Origin: Iphinoe sp. HA4291-MV1
GTDB taxonomy: Bacteria; Cyanobacteriota; Cyanobacteriia; Cyanobacteriales; Nostocaceae
Reading direction: 5' to 3'
DNA length: 64,000 bases
Assembly (NCBI GenBank): GCA_019359415.1
Contig: JAHHHH010000012.1
Span: 55,152-119,151 of the forward strand
Of the stretch, positions 24,879 to 42,162 are shown piece after piece. How positions within the stretch are numbered: position 1 is the stretch's first letter; each line of letters starts with the position of its first letter. The notes beneath the pieces are model-generated. The model searched no databases. It was not told the DNA's origin and was given only the letters and a program-made list of their open reading frames with translations. A program made the position numbers and the translations under genes.

Positions 24879-27299
24879 TTAACGATACTTATGCTGCTCC
24901 AATAGCTGTTGTGCTCTTGGCTTGTAAATCAAATAGAAAAAAGCCTCAATATAGCGCAGCAAATCTTCCCGATTCTCTTTTGAGATAAAGTTCCAGAAGC
25001 CATAAATCCGTGCTAGAGATAGTAGTTTGGAAGTGTGAATTTTCCATGTATAGGTGCTATAAACCCGATCTACACCTCGTTTAGAAATTTCATTCCAATA
25101 GTTGGGATTTTGTCCGCACTTGTGAACAAAGTCAAGAATTTTTTCGGCTGTTTCTTCTAAATTGGTTGGGTTGATGTAAAAGCCATTGACCTTATCTTGA
25201 ATGATTTCTAAAGGACCACCAAATTGCGTAGCAAAAGTTGGTAATCCCGAAATCATCGCTTCTAAAATTGTCAAACCAAATGCTTCAAACAAAGCAGGTT
25301 GCACAAAGATTCCCTGGCGCTCAGCAATGACCCGATAAACTTCGCCAGAGTCAGACTTGGTTAAACGCACACCCAACCAGCGAATTTTACCGTGGAGATT
25401 GTACTCCTCTATAGTTCGGTAAAGTTTGACAATCTCATCGCGTTCTTCGTTGTCGCCTGATTCTTCTACACGCAACTTACCTGCTACCAAAATGAGGTTG
25501 CATCGGTCTTGCAATTCTTGACTCCGACCAAAGCATTCGGCTAAACCAGTGAGGTTCTTAATGCGGTCAAGACGCGCCATTGAAAAAAGTGGTCGCTTGC
25601 TTGGATCATCAAGGATACCAAAAACTTGGGAGTCATCTTCCAGAGTGAAGAGCATTTCTTCTATTCTGGCGCGATCGCTCTCAACTCTGTCTTCAGTACG
25701 CGTATAGGGGAAATAAGTATTCTCGTTCACTCCAGGGGGTACCACGTTAAACTTGGGGCTAAACAGTTCAATCCCATTGACGACGTGATACAGTTCCGGC
25801 ATGGTAAAGCATTTGAGTGACTCGTACTGTCCTACACTATCCGGCGTGCCCACAATTTCTTGGTAGGTGCTGCTGATGATAAAGTTGGCAGCATTCATCG
25901 CCAATAAGTCAGCAGTGAATTGTAACGAAAAATGATATTTCTCCTCCAAATCTTGCCAATAGAGGTTACTGAACAAGTATTTGGACTTTTCTATCGCATG
26001 GGCAATGTTACACTGCGTTACACCCAGTTTGCGTGCTAGCAAAAACGCTACCAAATTCCCATCAGTATAGTTACCAACAATTAAATCTGGTCTACCATGA
26101 AACTCTGCCAGCAGTTCTTTTTCAGCATCGATCGCAAAGGTTTCCAGATAGGGCCAAAATTCAAACCGCGAAATCCAGTTTTGTGTCATGTTGGGATTAA
26201 ATTCCCGCAAAGGCACTCGCAAAATCCAGGCATTCTCAGTATCGTAGACTTTTTCTAGGCGCTGGTTACAAAGGGTACCATCACTATTGGGGATGAGGCG
26301 GGTGAGAATAATGACCTTCGGCTGGACATTCAATCCTTCTAGACCAGCCAGCATAGCATCTTCTTGCAGTTGCTTTTCCAGATTTTTCGCTTGGTCGAGG
26401 ACGTAAACCACTTGACCCCCAGTATCGGGACGCCCCAAAACTCCCTCTTGTCCAAACCAACCGTGAGCAGAAACCAAGACGATTCTAAAAATCATCGGGA
26501 TGCGAGAGATGAAGGCTTCCAACGTCTGAGGATCAGGAGAGTCAATCAATTCATCCAGAATACTCAAAGTTTCCTGAACTCGCTGAGCAGTGTGTCCCCA
26601 ACCTGGTTCAAAGCCCATCACTTGTAAGTCAAATCGGAATTCTTCATAGGGTTGCTCACTGGGACGAGAACTCACGAAAGTGATGGCTTTTTTGACTTGA
26701 TCAGAGAGTTGCTGCTGCGACTGAATACGTTGATTGATCAACAACTGAACACCGTTATACTGGTGTAAGCGCAAGAAGTTAAACAAGGTTTCTAGCCATT
26801 GCTTGGGGTCAGCAAACAGCTTACTGGATAGATAACGGTTGAGAAACTGCACTCCCTTGCCAATATTTTTTGGGTCACGAATGACAGGGGTGTAGTCATA
26901 AAATGGACCAAAATCCAATTCCAAGAGGTCGCCTTCGCTAGGGTTATATCGGTTCACCAAGCGATCGCGCAAATCCAAGAGTTCCTGAACCGTCATCGGC
27001 TCTATACTCAAGTCAGCTGTCAGTCGGTAAACTTCTTGACTAGCAATCTTTGGTCGTATAATAAAGCAGAGGCTTGATTCCTCTTGAATAATTTCTTGAG
27101 TGTAGTAGATGAGTTTTCCTAAGTGAGAAGCAGCGTAAAACTGCTCAGGCTTTTCGTACTTAGAGCAATATTCACCATATAAGTTGAGTATTTCGTTCCG
27201 CAGCAAGTACTTTTTTTCTAGCTGACGTAACTCACTTATCAAGGAACGTAAATCACTTTTTTCTTCACTATCCAGGACAGCTTGAAGTAATTCAGACAT
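24879..27299 (-). CDS. susA: Sucrose synthase
   Basis: The 806-residue enzyme interconverts sucrose plus (U/A)DP with fructose plus nucleotide-glucose. The N-terminal regulatory region (about 1-260) precedes the GT-B/GT4 catalytic core. The core has SAHGWFGQEGVLGRPDTGGQ, GNYTDGNLVAFLLARKLG and VVNGIELFSPKFNVVPPGVN. It also has SMARLDRIKNLTG and the E-x7-E motif in PALFEAFGLTILEAM. The length and motifs match cyanobacterial SusA, which in Anabaena supplies sucrose-derived carbon linked to nitrogen fixation. It stands alone; a sucrose-phosphatase gene lies 8 kb away. A weak hairpin (AATTACGAA/TTCGTAATT) follows the stop on the minus strand. Confidence 0.97.
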   Translation of the reverse strand: MSELLQAVLDSEEKSDLRSLISELRQLEKKYLLRNEILNLYGEYCSKYEKPEQFYAASHLGKLIYYTQEIIQEESSLCFIIRPKIASQEVYRLTADLSIEPMTVQELLDLRDRLVNRYNPSEGDLLELDFGPFYDYTPVIRDPKNIGKGVQFLNRYLSSKLFADPKQWLETLFNFLRLHQYNGVQLLINQRIQSQQQLSDQVKKAITFVSSRPSEQPYEEFRFDLQVMGFEPGWGHTAQRVQETLSILDELIDSPDPQTLEAFISRIPMIFRIVLVSAHGWFGQEGVLGRPDTGGQVVYVLDQAKNLEKQLQEDAMLAGLEGLNVQPKVIILTRLIPNSDGTLCNQRLEKVYDTENAWILRVPLREFNPNMTQNWISRFEFWPYLETFAIDAEKELLAEFHGRPDLIVGNYTDGNLVAFLLARKLGVTQCNIAHAIEKSKYLFSNLYWQDLEEKYHFSLQFTADLLAMNAANFIISSTYQEIVGTPDSVGQYESLKCFTMPELYHVVNGIELFSPKFNVVPPGVNENTYFPYTRTEDRVESDRARIEEMLFTLEDDSQVFGILDDPSKRPLFSMARLDRIKNLTGLAECFGRSQELQDRCNLILVAGKLRVEESGDNEERDEIVKLYRTIEEYNLHGKIRWLGVRLTKSDSGEVYRVIAERQGIFVQPALFEAFGLTILEAMISGLPTFATQFGGPLEIIQDKVNGFYINPTNLEETAEKILDFVHKCGQNPNYWNEISKRGVDRVYSTYTWKIHTSKLLSLARIYGFWNFISKENREDLLRYIEAFFYLIYKPRAQQLLEQHKYR

Positions 27300-29084: not shown

Positions 29085-29275
29085 CTTGCCCAGATAATAA
29101 CAACTTTGGATAGAGCGACTTAGATAGCAAGTCTTTCCCAGGATGCAGGTTCCAGCAAGCTGCTACCCTTAACATCTTTTAGTGAGAGGAGAAAATTTCC
29201 AGCTTTCAAGAGTCTGATTCACGAAACTTACTCTTAAAGAATTGGAACAAATTAGTGAAAAAAGGGAGTAGACTT

Positions 29276-29959
29276 GTGTTTTTTCACAAGAAAGAAACAA
29301 TTCAACCTGTTAACATTGCTGAGCCAAATCCACGTTTTGCTCAACTGCTTCTAGAGCAGTTTGGTGGTGCAACAGGTGAATTAACAGCAGCTTTGCAATA
29401 CTGGACACAGTCCTTCCACTGCGAAAATCCTGGAATTCGGGATATGTTGCAAGATATTGCTCTGGAAGAGTTTAGCCATTTGGAGATGGTTGGTAGACTC
29501 ATTGAAGGTCATACCAAAAATGTTGACCAAACCGAAGCTTACAAAAGTACCTTGTTTGCTGTGCGGGGTGTGGGACCGCATTTACTAGATAGTCAAGGTC
29601 AAGCTTGGTCAGCAGCCTATATCAATGAAGGTGGAGATGTTGTGCGCGATTTGCGTGCTGATATTGCTGCTGAAGCTGGCGCACGTCAAACTTATGAAGA
29701 ATTGGTTAAGCTAGCTCCTGATGATGAAACCAAACAGGTACTTGTCCATCTTCTGACGCGGGAAGTTTCCCATACTCAAATGTTCATGAAGGCGTTGGAT
29801 TCTTTGGGTAAGTTAACTGAGCCATTCTTCGGTAATATTCAACCTGATAGCACTGTGGATATTTACTACAACTTGTCTACTAACGGTAAGGACGAACGCG
29901 GTCCTTGGAACTCTGAACCAACTTTCCGTTATATTGCTGATCCGTTGCACCAAAAGTAA
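29276..29959 (+). CDS. Manganese catalase
   Basis: The protein is a dimanganese, ferritin-like catalase that breaks down H2O2 without heme. Metal ligands are visible in the first Glu region (QFGGATGELTAALQYWTQ), the ALEEFSHLEMVGRLIEGH motif (Glu and His), the AAEAGARQTYEELV motif and the EVSHTQMFMKAL motif. I chose the GTG at 29276 because a GGGAG lies seven bases upstream and the protein then begins MFFHKKE, the typical family start; an in-frame GTG at 29255 is less well placed. The length of 227 fits. In diazotrophic cyanobacteria such enzymes protect against peroxide; no regulator is adjacent. Confidence 0.92.
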   Translation: MFFHKKETIQPVNIAEPNPRFAQLLLEQFGGATGELTAALQYWTQSFHCENPGIRDMLQDIALEEFSHLEMVGRLIEGHTKNVDQTEAYKSTLFAVRGVGPHLLDSQGQAWSAAYINEGGDVVRDLRADIAAEAGARQTYEELVKLAPDDETKQVLVHLLTREVSHTQMFMKALDSLGKLTEPFFGNIQPDSTVDIYYNLSTNGKDERGPWNSEPTFRYIADPLHQK

Positions 29960-30290: not shown

Positions 30291-31343
30291 CTATACTCCC
30301 GCAAGGAGTTCTGGAAAATGGTGAGCATTTGGTGAGTGCATTGACTGAATTCCTAAATCAGCCCGATTCACAAGGTCTGCATAGGTTGGAATGACGTGAC
30401 CTACTCTATCTAGAACAGAGTGATTGAAGTTGAACCCATTCAGGTTAAATGCCATTGTGCTCACACCAACAGCTGTAAACCAAATGCCTATCGTCGGTAG
30501 CAGCATCAACCAAAGATGAACAGAACGTTTGGTGCGAAGCGCCAGACTGGGAATAGTCAAACGTCCGAAAAAGCTAGTATGTCCAGCAAAAAGGTTGTAG
30601 GTTTCTGCCTCTTGCCCAAATCTATAACCTGCGTTAGCAGATTCAATTTCGCTAGTCTCACGTACCAAACTTGATGTCACCAGAGAACCGTGCAATGCAC
30701 TAAGTACAGAACCACCAAACACACCTGCAACACCCAGCATGTGAAATGGATGCATTAGGATGTTGTGTTCTGCTTGGAAAGCGAACATAAAGTGGAATGT
30801 ACCACTGATGCCCAGAGGCATTCCCTCAGAAAAGCTGCCTTGACCTATAGGATATACGAGAAAGACGGCAGTGGCAGCAGCAGCTGGAGCAGAAAAAGCA
30901 ACAGGAATCCAGGGACGCATTCCCAGTCGGTAACTCAGTTCCCACATCCGCCCTAGATAGCACCAAACGCTTATTAGGAAATGCAGTACGATCAGTTGGT
31001 AAGGACCGCCATTATAAAGCCATTCATCAATATTTCCCGCTTCCCACACCGGATAAAAATGTAGTCCGACTGCAGCAGAGGTCGGCACTACAGCAGCAGT
31101 GACGATATTGTTACCGCTCAGGATTGAGCCGGCGATCGGTTCTCGAATACCGTCCATATCGACTGACGGCGCAACGATGAAGGCAAGGATAAAACAGATC
31201 ATAGCGACCAGGAGAGTAGGAATCATCAGCACTCCAAACCAACCCACATAAATGCGATTGTCGGTGCTGGTAATCCAGTTGCAAAAGCGCTCCCAGTATT
31301 TAAAAATCTGAAGTTCTTGAATCTGTTGAGTGAAGTCGTTCAT
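30291..31343 (-). CDS. psbA: Aberrant photosystem II D1 protein (rogue/sentinel type)
   Basis: The 350-residue protein aligns with D1 throughout. Tyr-Z (residue 164, standard Y161), its partner His190, the P680 His198, the iron ligands His215 and His272, and Glu189 and His332 are kept. However, Mn4CaO5 ligands are changed: Asp170 is Glu (FSEGMPLG), Glu333 is Ser (MHSPNAHH) and Asp342 is Leu. In the QB pocket Ser264 is Ala. After Ala344 only Gly-Val remain, so the CtpA-processed tail is missing. The stop codon falls in a MITE-like end. Such D1 forms are the 'rogue' or 'sentinel' class, expected to give PSII centres that do not evolve oxygen. Chlorophyll f synthase is less likely since no far-red gene cluster is nearby. 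Confidence 0.85.
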
Positions 31344-32318
31344 CAGTAAGATTTCTCTATTTTTCAGAATCTTTTCATATTATTCTCATTTTTTTATCAT
31401 TTTTATCTCATATTGTTACATTTGTTCATTAGCCTTTGGCGGCTCCCTTTGGGAGCATCGCTCTCATGCGACAACTGCGCCAAAGAGATTGCGTTGGATC
31501 AAACATCAATCCGCGAAATGATTGAAGAAGGGCGAAGATTTTAATGCAGTTTGTTTTAGCTGAAGCAGCAGAAGCCCCGCACTCTACGCGCTTCGGGTGA
31601 GTGACGGGATGAATGCGAGTGAGTTGAGGAGTGCAGGTTGACCAATGCGAAACGCAGTGAGCAAGAGAAACCTGCAACGACGAAACGAACAAATCTCTTG
31701 ACGCATTGTCCCCTTCTCCTCCGGAGACGCTAACGCGAACAAAAACAGCCAGAGAAAGTGTTTTTGTTGATCTGTCGGCGGAGTCGTCGCATTGTCCCCG
31801 CCAGAGTCAGCCATGCCGAGGGACTAAGCGACAAAAAACTGGCAGCCTTTGTTTTGTTGATCTGTCGGTGTATACGGGTACTCGTTCTATTAAGGCTGCC
31901 AGTTTTTCTAGCAGGATGCGACACCTTGTTTGATTGATCTGTCGGCGTAGTTGTCGCATTGTCCCCTAGAAAATGGAGCAGGCTTTGTTTTGGTTGATTC
32001 GTCGTCGTAGTAGGGTACTCGTTGTAGTAAGCGAGAAGTTTGAGCGGAGGTTTCCTCCGATCAAAGCTTCGGTGCTGCTCCATTTTCTTCTCCTGTCGGA
32101 GAGGCTACGCCAACGTGTAAGACCCCCGTGAATACTCGTAGTAATGCGCTCGTGCTGATTCTGGTACGTGTAAGACCCCCGTGGGTACTCGTAGTCGTGC
32201 GCTCGTGTTGTTTTTGATACGTGTAAGACCCCGTGACAACGAAGCGAGTTTTCTGGAATTAGGAAATTTCTGCCAGTGCTTGTTATCATGGTTATAGAAG
32301 CGTGATAAAGGTCGAATC
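31344..32318. repeat. Repeat-dense tract upstream of tnpB
   Basis: No gene is supported although several frames are open. The motif CGCATTGTCCCC occurs at about 31702, 31787 and 31958, and TTGATCTGTCGG at about 31770, 31860 and 31935. A 53-bp unit is repeated in tandem (see separate entry). A hairpin-forming GGCTCCCTTTGGGAGC repeat lies at about 31440. Very similar motifs occur once upstream of vnfE. The first 80 bases should hold the D1 gene promoter. Confidence 0.6.
32113..32240. repeat. 53-bp tandem repeat, about 2.4 units
   Basis: Units start at 32113, 32166 and 32219, exactly 53 bp apart. Each begins ACGTGTAAGACCCC(C)GTG and continues with a variable ACTCGTAGT-GTGCGCTCGTG stretch. The tract ends 80 bases before the tnpB ATG. 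Confidence 0.75.
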
Positions 32319-34421: not shown

Positions 34422-34643
34422 CTACAACCTGTCTAATTTAAACTCACGAGCTATTAGGATAATGCCTGCGACAATGAGTAGCACTCCTATGGCGTGATGA
34501 AGAATTTCCGTGCTATTGTCACCAATCAGCTTTCTAAAGAACTTTCGACTAGCGTTATTCCAGTAAGCACTGGGCTTGTAGTAGGTCAATACAATGGTAA
34601 GGAATCCAGAAAAAATGCAAGCGGAACCACTGATGAGACGCAT
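34422..34643 (-). CDS. Small hypothetical membrane protein
   Basis: The 73 residues contain two predicted transmembrane helices, about 3-20 (LISGSACIFSGFLTIVLTYY) and 50-66 (AIGVLLIVAGIILIARE), joined by a basic loop. I do not recognise the family. The protein-like composition and two clean helices support a real gene. Neighbours give no clue. Confidence 0.5.
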   Translation of the reverse strand: MRLISGSACIFSGFLTIVLTYYKPSAYWNNASRKFFRKLIGDNSTEILHHAIGVLLIVAGIILIAREFKLDRL

Positions 34644-35027
34644 TTGAGAAATACCTAAATTCTGAAGAAAAGCACCGAGGCACTGGCAGGTATCAATTTA
34701 TGAAAACTGACCCACCCTGATGATAAAAAGGAGTGGAGAAGTTGATTGGGCACATCCGCCCATCCACAGCCCGATGAGAACAACAGCTGTTGATAGCTAG
34801 CGATGCTGGATTGCTTTGCGAGTCTTTGCTTGCATCAAGTGTTACTTAATTTCATAATTTTTTATTATTTGCAGAGTACAATGTCCTCATATTTGTTTCA
34901 TAGTTCTGGTTATACTTTTTTATATTTATTTAATATCTAAAGAACAGACGTCCCATCTGAAAACAGATAAGATTGGTGCCAAATCAGCATAAACTTTTTG
35001 GTGGTAAAGCTAACAAGAGAGGTTGCT
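34644..35027. other. Gap upstream of the sucrose-phosphatase gene
   Basis: A GC-rich segment (about 34740-34800) with the inverted pair GGGCACATCCGCCC / GCCCGATG and an AT-rich segment follow. Nothing specific is recognised. Confidence 0.3.
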
Positions 35028-39510: not shown

Positions 39511-39565
39511 GTCCTGAACTCTTAAGATGCACATTTTTAAATCCTTATGCAACAAGACTTTCAGT

Positions 39566-39862
39566 ATGCGCACAGATCCCTACGCTTGGATAGAAGAATC
39601 TCTAGCGACGATTCACCGTGCTGACTGGTATCGCTCAGTACAAACAATCCACGGTCTTCCAGGAGCAACGGTCTTTTTGGAAGGACGAGAGGTTATCAAT
39701 TTTGCCAGTAATGACTATCTGGGATTAGCTGGGGATCAGCGGCTGATTGCAGCAGCAACGATCGCTATCCAAGAATTGGGTACGGGTAGCACTGGTTCAA
39801 GATTGCTTAGTGGACATAGAGAAATACACAGAGATTTGGAAAGAGCGATTGAGCTTTTTTGA
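39566..39862 (+). pseudogene. Truncated bioF copy (5' part)
   Basis: The frame encodes about 98 residues nearly identical to the N-terminus of the intact bioF 1.4 kb downstream: [53 protein letters not shown]. It breaks off after RDLERAIE and stops at once. It lacks the PLP-binding lysine and all of the C-terminal domain. It arose by partial duplication. Confidence 0.85.
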
Positions 39863-40983: not shown

Positions 40984-42162
40984 ATGTTCACAAACCCCTA
41001 CGCTTGGATAGAAGAATCCCTAACTACAATTCACCGTGCTGACTGGTATCGCTCAGTACAAACAATCCACGGTCTTCCAGGAGCGACGGTACTTTTGGAA
41101 GGACGAGAGGTGATCAATTTTGCCAGTAATGACTACTTGGGATTGGCAGGAGATGAGCGGCTGATTGCAGCAGCAAAGATGGCTATCCAAGAATTGGGTA
41201 CAGGTAGCACTGGTTCGAGGTTACTCAGCGGACATAGGGAATTACACAGAGATTTAGAAAGGGCGATCGCATCACTCAAACAAACAGAAGATGCTGTTGT
41301 TTTTAGTTCCGGCTATCTAGCAAATCTAGGGACAATCACTGCCCTTGTAGGCAAGCGTGATTTTATTTTATCTGACCTGTACAATCATTCTAGTCTGAAA
41401 AATGGGGCAATCCTGAGTGGTGCAACCACTATTGAATATCCTCATTGTGACATTGAAGCATTAAGAATCAAACTCAGTCAACAAAGGCAAAACTATCGAC
41501 GTTGCCTAATCATCACTGATAGCGTCTTCAGTATGGATGGTGATTTGTGTCCTTTGCCAGCACTGTTGGAGATAGCAGAAGAATTTAGCTGTATGCTGCT
41601 CATTGATGAAGCGCACGCTACTGGAGTACTAGGGAACACTGGCGCTGGATGCGTAGAACATTTCGGATGTACAGGAAGGCAGTTAATTCAAATTGGTACA
41701 TTGAGTAAAGCTTTGGGTAGTCTGGGCGGGTATGTCGCTGGAAGTAAAACCTTAATAGACTTTTTGCGGAATCGCGCACCAACATGGATTTATACTACAG
41801 CGCTTTCCGGTGCTGATACAGCAGCGGCACTAACAGCTATAAAAATAGTACAGCAAGAACCACAACGCCGCGCCAAATTATGGCAGAATATAGCACAACT
41901 CAAGCAGGTCATGCAACAGCAACTACCCAAGCTAAAATTGCTACCCTCTGAATCACCCATCCTCTGCTTTCAATTACCAAGTGCAGCAGATGCGCTCACA
42001 GTAGGACAGCAGCTAAAACATGCTGGCATTTTTGCCCCTGCTATTCGTCCCCCCACCGTATCTACAAGTCGGATACGAATTTCTCTTATGGCAACTCATG
42101 AACCAACTCACATTAAGAAATTGGTAGAAGCTTTGAGTAGTATCTCAACTCAGTCCAATTAA
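40984..42162 (+). CDS. bioF: 8-Amino-7-oxononanoate synthase
   Basis: PLP enzyme that condenses pimeloyl-ACP (or -CoA) with alanine in biotin synthesis. The 392-residue protein has the N-terminal substrate region ([35 protein letters not shown]), the [10 protein letters not shown] motif and the PLP lysine in [17 protein letters not shown]. The C-terminal [19 protein letters not shown] is also present. It is complete. A 5' fragment of a near-identical copy lies 1.4 kb upstream. No other bio gene is adjacent. Confidence 0.95.

Follow-up and report, generated by a model that had tools for sequence, protein, structure and literature searches.

The 64,000-nucleotide stretch of the cyanobacterium Iphinoe sp. 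HA4291-MV1 analyzed here (contig JAHHHH010000012.1, positions 55,152 to 119,151; hereafter the window) carries a psbA gene that encodes an atypical D1 protein of photosystem II (PSII) and is preceded by an operator-like array of direct repeats (Table 1). The protein passes the PsbA model TIGR01151 with 597.9 bits (cut-off 596.05), and its best matches in the PDB are D1 chains. The host genome (7.36 Mb in 140 contigs) contains eight Photo_RC genes: four for standard D1, two for D2, the window gene and, on contig C11, a gene for another atypical D1. Alignment with the host's own standard D1, which provides the residue numbering used throughout, shows the replacements D170E, E333S, D342L and, in the QB site, S264A, together with conservation of Y161 (Tyr-Z), H190, H198 (the P680 His), H215 and H272, so that Tyr-Z, the P680 His and the iron ligands are all retained, as a preliminary description of the locus had stated. 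The same holds for E189, H332 and A344, to which H337 can be added. Further changes are Q329 (for E329), A87 (for N87), H181 (for N181) and a C-terminus (PELLAGV) that lacks the LDLA processing motif and stops 2 residues past A344, compared to a median of 16 residues in 89 standard sequences. Given that the ligand set D170, E189, H332, E333, H337, D342 and A344 is incomplete, an assignment to the water-oxidizing groups 3 or 4 was rejected. Because E333, D342 and E329 are lost and D170 and S264 are replaced, the protein should not be able to hold a working Mn4CaO5 cluster or support water oxidation.

Phylogenetic analysis places this protein in group 2 of the D1 family, in line with the earlier proposal of a rogue or sentinel D1. 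Our most careful tree (61 sequences, IQ-TREE, C20 mixture) omitted 14 of the 20 ChlF sequences and most of the standard ones; two D1 sequences (L138 and the second open reading frame of L164) were left out of all trees. Since the D2 root was unusable (end branch of about 10), the D1 tree was read unrooted or rooted on ChlF. It contains a branch with 45 group 2 sequences on one side (support 100/96), next to groups formed by six ChlF sequences (100/100) and by nine standard D1s with the group 3 reference (100/97). The sequences had been sorted into standard and atypical by their set of manganese ligands, so that their separation by ligands holds by definition; the tree recovers the same split. 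Based on its position and ligand set, the window protein is a group 2 D1, located within neither the standard nor the low-oxygen D1s, where the preliminary description would have seen its assignment refuted. Within group 2, it belongs to a five-member subclade with homologs from genomes G373, G475, G319 and G350 (100/99), which also appears in a quick tree (99); another quick tree, containing only one of these four relatives, pairs it with the window D1 (99). The window D1 shares 75-79% identity with its four relatives, 69-74% with 40 other group 2 sequences, 67-72% with 89 standard D1s and 52-58% with 20 ChlF proteins. A search of 388 genomes of the class (E-value 1e-174) found the subclade in five genomes, including the host. 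It scored at most five candidates per genome, so that further members may have been overlooked; when all candidates were scored in the hosts' families or orders (63, 36 and 29 genomes), no extra member was found.

The nearest relatives identified for the window D1 belong to other orders. The C11 copy (C11:3837-4907, locus L118) is a second group 2 rogue D1, which joins the homologs of a Scytonema metagenome-assembled genome and of G488, a member of the same family; its placement in group 2 rules out that it is a ChlF protein. A grouping of the window D1 with the C11 copy and its two nearest relatives was rejected (approximately unbiased test, p 0.0016), implying that the host's two rogue D1s differ in descent. 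We infer that the gene in the window probably arrived by transfer. The possibility that it is a non-functional remnant, acquired horizontally, devoid of an adjacent importer (see below) and redundant with the C11 copy, draws on this separate descent and on a TnpB gene and repeats located upstream. It appears very improbable, since the frame is open, the core residues are kept and the four units of the operator described below are intact. Moreover, NG86 estimates against the four relatives gave low nonsynonymous divergence (dN of 0.157-0.183) at synonymous divergence that is very high for two of them (dS of 3.7 and 1.8) and saturated, and hence not computable, for the others, which speaks against a pseudogene, the second outcome that would have contradicted the initial assignment. 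By these measures, the window psbA is an intact and constrained D1 gene.

The preliminary description had regarded the protein as a partially degraded variant. However, the residues it retains are common among the 40 other group 2 sequences, with E170 in 34, H332 in 36, H337 in all 40 and A344 in 29 of them. Similarly, its replacements recur in this set: Q329 is found in 39/40 cases, position 333 is A or S in 36/40 (E in 3/40), position 264 is A or G in 39/40, and position 342 is never Asp. Judged from this comparison, the pattern seen in the window is the usual state of group 2. All five subclade members share E170, H332, H337, S333 and L342. They are further characterized by K268 (5/5 versus 0/40 other group 2 sequences), Y317 (5/5 versus 10/40) and T or S at position 286, which is A in 40/40 of the others; residue 189 varies among them (three D, one E, one H). 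Outside the subclade, three group 2 D1s (L132, L133 and L139, from G103, G086 and G100) end at residue 343 and thus lack Ala344, the last ligand, and in a rogue D1 branch of family f37 (L145, L146 and L148-L151), Ser replaces the P680 ligand His198 in six of six sequences.

The region upstream of the window psbA contains four consecutive ATGA-N7 units (31368-31411), in which all 16 ATGA letters match. None of 2000 dinucleotide shuffles of the 117 bp in front of the gene (31344-31460) reaches such a four-unit repeat. The array also precedes psbA in G475 and G319 (16/16 each) and in G350 (15/16), and it is present as two-unit pieces only in G373. In G373 (16/16) and G319 (15/16), it is additionally found in the divergent promoter of a metal importer. 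A scan of 12 genomes for the ATGA-N7 pattern with at most one mismatch returned 25 hits, compared to six for a reversed control pattern. Nine of the 25 belong to subclade psbA genes or to metal importers; two of these nine were new, one at an additional importer copy of G373 and one at an mntCA-like promoter in G120, a genome in which the subclade gene was not found. An 11-bp minisatellite in the host genome (C138:143164-143244, locus L220; ATGAGCAATAA and ATGAGAAATAA units) mimics the operator pattern. Further upstream of the rogue psbA, the intergenic region 31720-32000 shows, by eye, copies of a GATCTGTCGGC...GTCGCATTGTCCCC repeat beside the TnpB gene. A scan for sigma-70 promoters performed no better than on shuffled sequences, and when the promoters of psbA and of the importers were compared with a Zur box consensus, the best matches had 4-6 mismatches in 14 positions.

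An independent motif derived from manganese importer promoters recognizes the same array. The MntC-like protein of G120, found through the ATGA-N7 pattern, served as a query in a search for relatives that relied solely on protein similarity and yielded matches in 134 of 291 genomes. Thirty loci were fetched, one of which (L242) gave no start, leaving 29 upstream regions for training; G120's own upstream region was not among them, and the matrix saw no psbA promoter. The unsupervised motif obtained, AAATATGAAACGATTATGAAAA, consists of two 11-bp direct repeats and has a site in 29/29 regions (21.4 to 34.1 bits, four in reverse orientation). Its best score in the entire 64 kb falls on the array upstream of the window psbA (31372-31393, 22.7 bits), where it also matches at 31361-31382 (21.5 bits), 31383-31404 (18.2 bits) and 31394-31415 (16.1 bits). 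The other subclade psbA genes are preceded by sites of 28.2 (G373), 26.8 (G475), 26.0 (G319) and 23.9 bits (G350), whereas the upstream regions of other rogue psbA genes (n=38, with L010 and L012 left out because, by length, they are the same contigs as L204 and L211, respectively) and of standard psbA genes (n=47, the other 24 of the 71 loci, without 250 bp of clear upstream sequence, being left unscored) reach maxima of only 12.4 and 12.2 bits. Within the host, the C11 copy scores 9.8 bits and the four standard genes at most 0.3 bits. The operator thus precedes five of five subclade genes, a clear difference from the other rogues (Fisher p 1e-6), with the five being relatives rather than independent events. 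A little nearer in G373, there is a 33.8-bit site (L194:1889) inside an over-long open reading frame call, and in G350 a 32.3-bit site stands some 13-16 bp ahead of the mntC part. Across 2.07 Mb from 114 non-subclade loci, only two sites reach at least 18 bits. The better one (L056, 25.0 bits) is located just before an mntH gene (632.9 bits against the MntH model, cut-off 430); the other precedes, by eye, a transposase-like gene. In Anabaena, mntH is a target of the manganese regulator ManR. On contig C30 of the host, a 27.8-bit site lies 6 bp ahead of the first gene of an mntCAB-like operon. When the matrix was rebuilt without families f45 and f58 and the host, from 10 sites as picked by the full matrix, the psbA site was still the top match in the window (24.0 bits).

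In three of the four relatives (L194/G373, L196/G319 and L197/G350), a cluster A-I metal ATP-binding cassette (ABC) importer is located on the upstream side of psbA; in the fourth (L195/G475), the contig ends 574 bp upstream of the gene. Homologs of its permease and binding protein are found near 0/40 other rogue and 1/71 standard psbA genes (L023). The importer of G350 is MntC-like and divergent from psbA; an IS4 element splits its binding-protein gene into two pieces, which share 87% and 65% identity with the MntC-like G120 protein. In the window itself, two weaker matrix matches constitute a possible second operator in front of the sucrose-phosphate phosphatase gene. One of 2000 shuffles of region 34841-34998 reaches their score, and sites as strong as these two (18.1 and 19.3 bits) occur only twice in the 2.07 Mb of other loci. 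These sites are oriented towards an open reading frame for a 73-residue hydrophobic protein without Pfam match (34422-34643, minus strand).

Table 1. Features of the window discussed in the text
Feature	Position	Strand	Remarks
psbA, group 2 (rogue/sentinel) D1	30291..31343	-	350 aa; complete frame from ATG to stop codon
Operator-like array of 11-bp direct repeats	31361..31415	-	18-72 bp before psbA start
Possible second operator	34849..34905	-	Two matrix matches (18.1, 19.3 bits); intergenic, before sucrose-phosphate phosphatase gene
Manganese catalase-like gene	29255..29959	+	Pfam PF05067 (163.8 bits); gap of 331 bp to psbA, genes convergent

The identity, clade and ligand losses of the window D1, the operator its gene shares with manganese importers and the importer next door in its relatives are computed observations. 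Viewed together, they make it rather likely, in our judgment, that the protein is a rogue D1 of a manganese-starvation regulon, probably governed by ManR, and acts as a manganese-free placeholder. It would still build a PSII reaction center, although one without a working Mn4CaO5 cluster. Its gene has a promoter whose direct-repeat operator, typical of the mntCAB and mntH importers, is most likely a site for the OmpR-type regulator ManR. As long as manganese is plentiful, the regulator would repress the rogue psbA; once it becomes short, importer and rogue D1 would be made together, and the latter would fill PSII, which would save manganese and let complexes stay assembled while avoiding the damage caused by a half-built oxygen-evolving site. 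Going beyond the operator itself, we infer that ManR is the regulator, that a lack of manganese induces the gene and that its product is a placeholder. We see about an even chance that the subclade as a whole represents a manganese-starvation D1, with ManR-type control switching the D1 protein of PSII as high-affinity manganese uptake opens. PhoB and SphR belong to the same family as ManR. These two proteins bind 8-bp repeats with 3-bp linkers, equivalent to an 11-bp period (PMC1906773; this and the other PMC sources are cited from parts of their text). ManR itself is an OmpR-type protein (PMC13421787). In Synechocystis, the ManS/ManR system keeps mntCAB repressed at sufficient manganese levels and releases it when the metal is scarce (PMC7020235, PMC11649195), and repression of mntCAB by ManR under manganese sufficiency has also been described elsewhere (PMC4361706).

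Several points weigh against a manganese-starvation D1. The subclade comprises only five members, and no importer lies beside the window psbA. Of the 25 loose-pattern hits, five fall into one minisatellite in the host genome and 11 have no visible metal link (as judged by eye from the neighbors of eight of them). The repeats are AT-rich, and with the 22-bp matrix alone, 18 of 5000 shuffled versions of the 100 bp in front of the gene score as high as the real sequence. The metal importer near a standard psbA gene in L023 lacks a site of at least 16 bits. In addition, the importers beside psbA stay below the curated NCBIfam cut-offs for manganese and zinc types alike, as do the MntC-like proteins tested (the host's own and that of G120), so that only MntH passes. 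Zinc is a possible substrate in L194 and L196, whose binding proteins have the ligand pattern H-H-H-D, as in zinc-type proteins, with the third His at the position of the Glu ligand in PsaA; the L197 fragment has Glu. The regulator's identity as ManR, finally, is putative. As for the ligands, the losses of E333, D342 and E329 are the stronger ones and D170E the milder change. By itself, the latter has been reported to have little effect on activity (PMC10535343).

The main alternative in the literature is a sentinel that replaces standard D1 in dark or N2-fixing cells, stops oxygen evolution and protects nitrogenase, here including the V-nitrogenase encoded on the same contig. The presence of V-nitrogenase in the window, noted at the outset, is confirmed by scores above the model cut-offs for vnfK (898.7 bits, cut-off 873.95) and for a vnfDG fusion (D part 999.2 bits, cut-off 823.1; G part 147.5 bits, cut-off 141.7). 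The host genome additionally possesses a second nifH-like gene (contig C127) and a HetR-type gene. A sentinel role would agree with the affiliation of the window D1 with group 2 and has been proposed for PsbA4 of Cyanothece, and Synechocystis cells with PsbA4 as their only D1 could not photosynthesize (PMC9640542). However, of the genes that the preliminary description had located a few kilobases from psbA, this distance applies only to those for sucrose synthase (nearest edge at 27299, 3.0 kb) and sucrose-phosphate phosphatase (3.7 kb), whereas 18 kb filled with other genes separate psbA from vnfH (to 12293), the closest of the nitrogenase genes. Moreover, the window VnfDG, VnfK and VnfH queries had no match in any of the 44 other rogue D1 loci (811 kb, some at contig ends and part of L118 reading N), and neither did its manganese catalase and sucrose synthase. 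The oxygen-avoidance program suggested in the preliminary description, which would have linked the rogue D1 to V-nitrogenase, is thus not supported at this locus, and the promoter, in matching those of manganese importers, points to manganese instead. It is also weakened in general by results for Cyanothece 51142, in which photosynthetic regulation in the dark was independent of PsbA4 and deletion of psbA4 led to slightly faster growth without fixed nitrogen, with changes in charge recombination and PSII titer (PMC9640542). Overall, we consider a sentinel function in the window unlikely. ManR oxidation in the dark has been hypothesized to weaken DNA binding (PMC13421787). This could also give dark expression of the rogue psbA, which would reconcile manganese control with the sentinel idea.

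There is no general conserved neighbor across the rogue loci, with the commonest cluster besides psbA occurring in 7 of 43. We treat the manganese catalase-like gene simply as a neighbor of the window psbA. By eye, we saw genes resembling those for sulfide:quinone reductase (SQR) in six rogue loci (L131, L134, L199, L204, L205 and L209) and genes resembling those for the anaerobic ribonucleotide reductase (RNR)-activating protein in another set of six (L011, L122, L130, L131, L132 and L134), and in L210 (G488, same family) the rogue psbA is flanked by hydrogenase maturation protease-like and Hox-type bidirectional hydrogenase-like genes. A bioF-like gene (8-amino-7-oxononanoate synthase) occurs twice within the window (39527-39862 and 40984-42162), once in full length and once as a closely similar 5' fragment that lies 1.1 kb upstream; between the two are two open reading frames, one of which resembles, by eye, a TnpB fragment. 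Such SQR-like and RNR activase-like neighbors, together with the reported proximity of group 2 genes to sqr (PMC5061849), could indicate a general D1 for anoxic or sulfidic conditions, in which case the operator would be incidental or serve another metal, such as iron or zinc, the latter in line with the two H-H-H-D binding proteins. We regard this as quite unlikely, because the DNA retrieved around psbA for members of the window's subclade showed neighbors of neither kind, and the matrix fits 29/29 MntC-like promoters and found mntH blindly.

Alternatively, the half-site formed by E170, E189, H332, H337, Tyr-Z and H190, all kept in the window (E170, H332 and H337 in all five subclade members), might photo-oxidize Mn(II), using it as an electron donor or serving to sense or store it, which would explain co-regulation with an importer. 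A D170E mutant is said, in a secondary report, to oxidize manganese without evolving O2 (PMC10535343), manganese oxidation by a rogue-like D1 has been proposed (PMC8047818), and PSII can form manganese oxide (PMC7705724). Yet, residue 189 varies within the subclade, and a manganese-starvation operator would provide the protein just when its substrate is scarce, making a manganese-oxidizing or manganese-handling reaction center distinctly improbable.

The role of rogue D1 proteins is still debated, and the usual answer, dark nitrogen fixation, has lost weight since psbA4 was deleted in Cyanothece (PMC9640542). Among the matches listed from a partial collection of open-access literature, no title or opening part of an abstract linked rogue D1 to manganese limitation or ManR. 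What is new here is a rogue D1 subclade carrying the operator of manganese importers, and we claim novelty for the operator evidence only. It offers a concrete and cheap test of rogue D1 function by manganese depletion. If our reading is correct, some cyanobacteria would own a dedicated PSII core for life at low manganese, a notion that would also be relevant to models that invoke manganese-poor or manganese-oxidizing reaction centers in the evolution of oxygenic photosynthesis.

Compared with known D1 variants, the window protein most closely resembles other group 2 members, such as PsbA4 of Cyanothece 51142, with which it shares a common tree branch, the loss of manganese-cluster ligands in the loop and the C-terminus, and an altered C-terminal end without LDLA, whereas Tyr-Z, P680 and the iron ligands are kept. 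The published role of group 2 concerns dark or N2-fixing cells, and, unlike the other members scored, the window subclade carries the importer operator. ChlF (group 1, super-rogue) is likewise a D1 paralog unable to hold a normal manganese cluster. However, the window D1, only 52-58% identical to it, has L127, G128, P144 and H252 instead of Q127-D128, S144 and Q252, which excludes it from group 1, and the QD motif of ChlF and far-red light photoacclimation (FaRLiP) had no match in the window protein or the host genome. The low-oxygen D1' of group 3 (PsbA2 of PDB 7yq2) shares A80, P144 and F147 with the window D1, but it has a complete set of ligands and falls among the standard D1s, so that ligands and tree exclude this assignment as well. 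With the manganese importers (mntCAB, mntH), the window psbA has in common an operator of 11-bp direct repeats near the start codon. While the ManR-repressed genes encode transporters, the putative ManR target in the window encodes a PSII subunit. PSII would then have a metal-sparing isoform, following a logic comparable to that of the copper-controlled exchange of plastocyanin and cytochrome c6.
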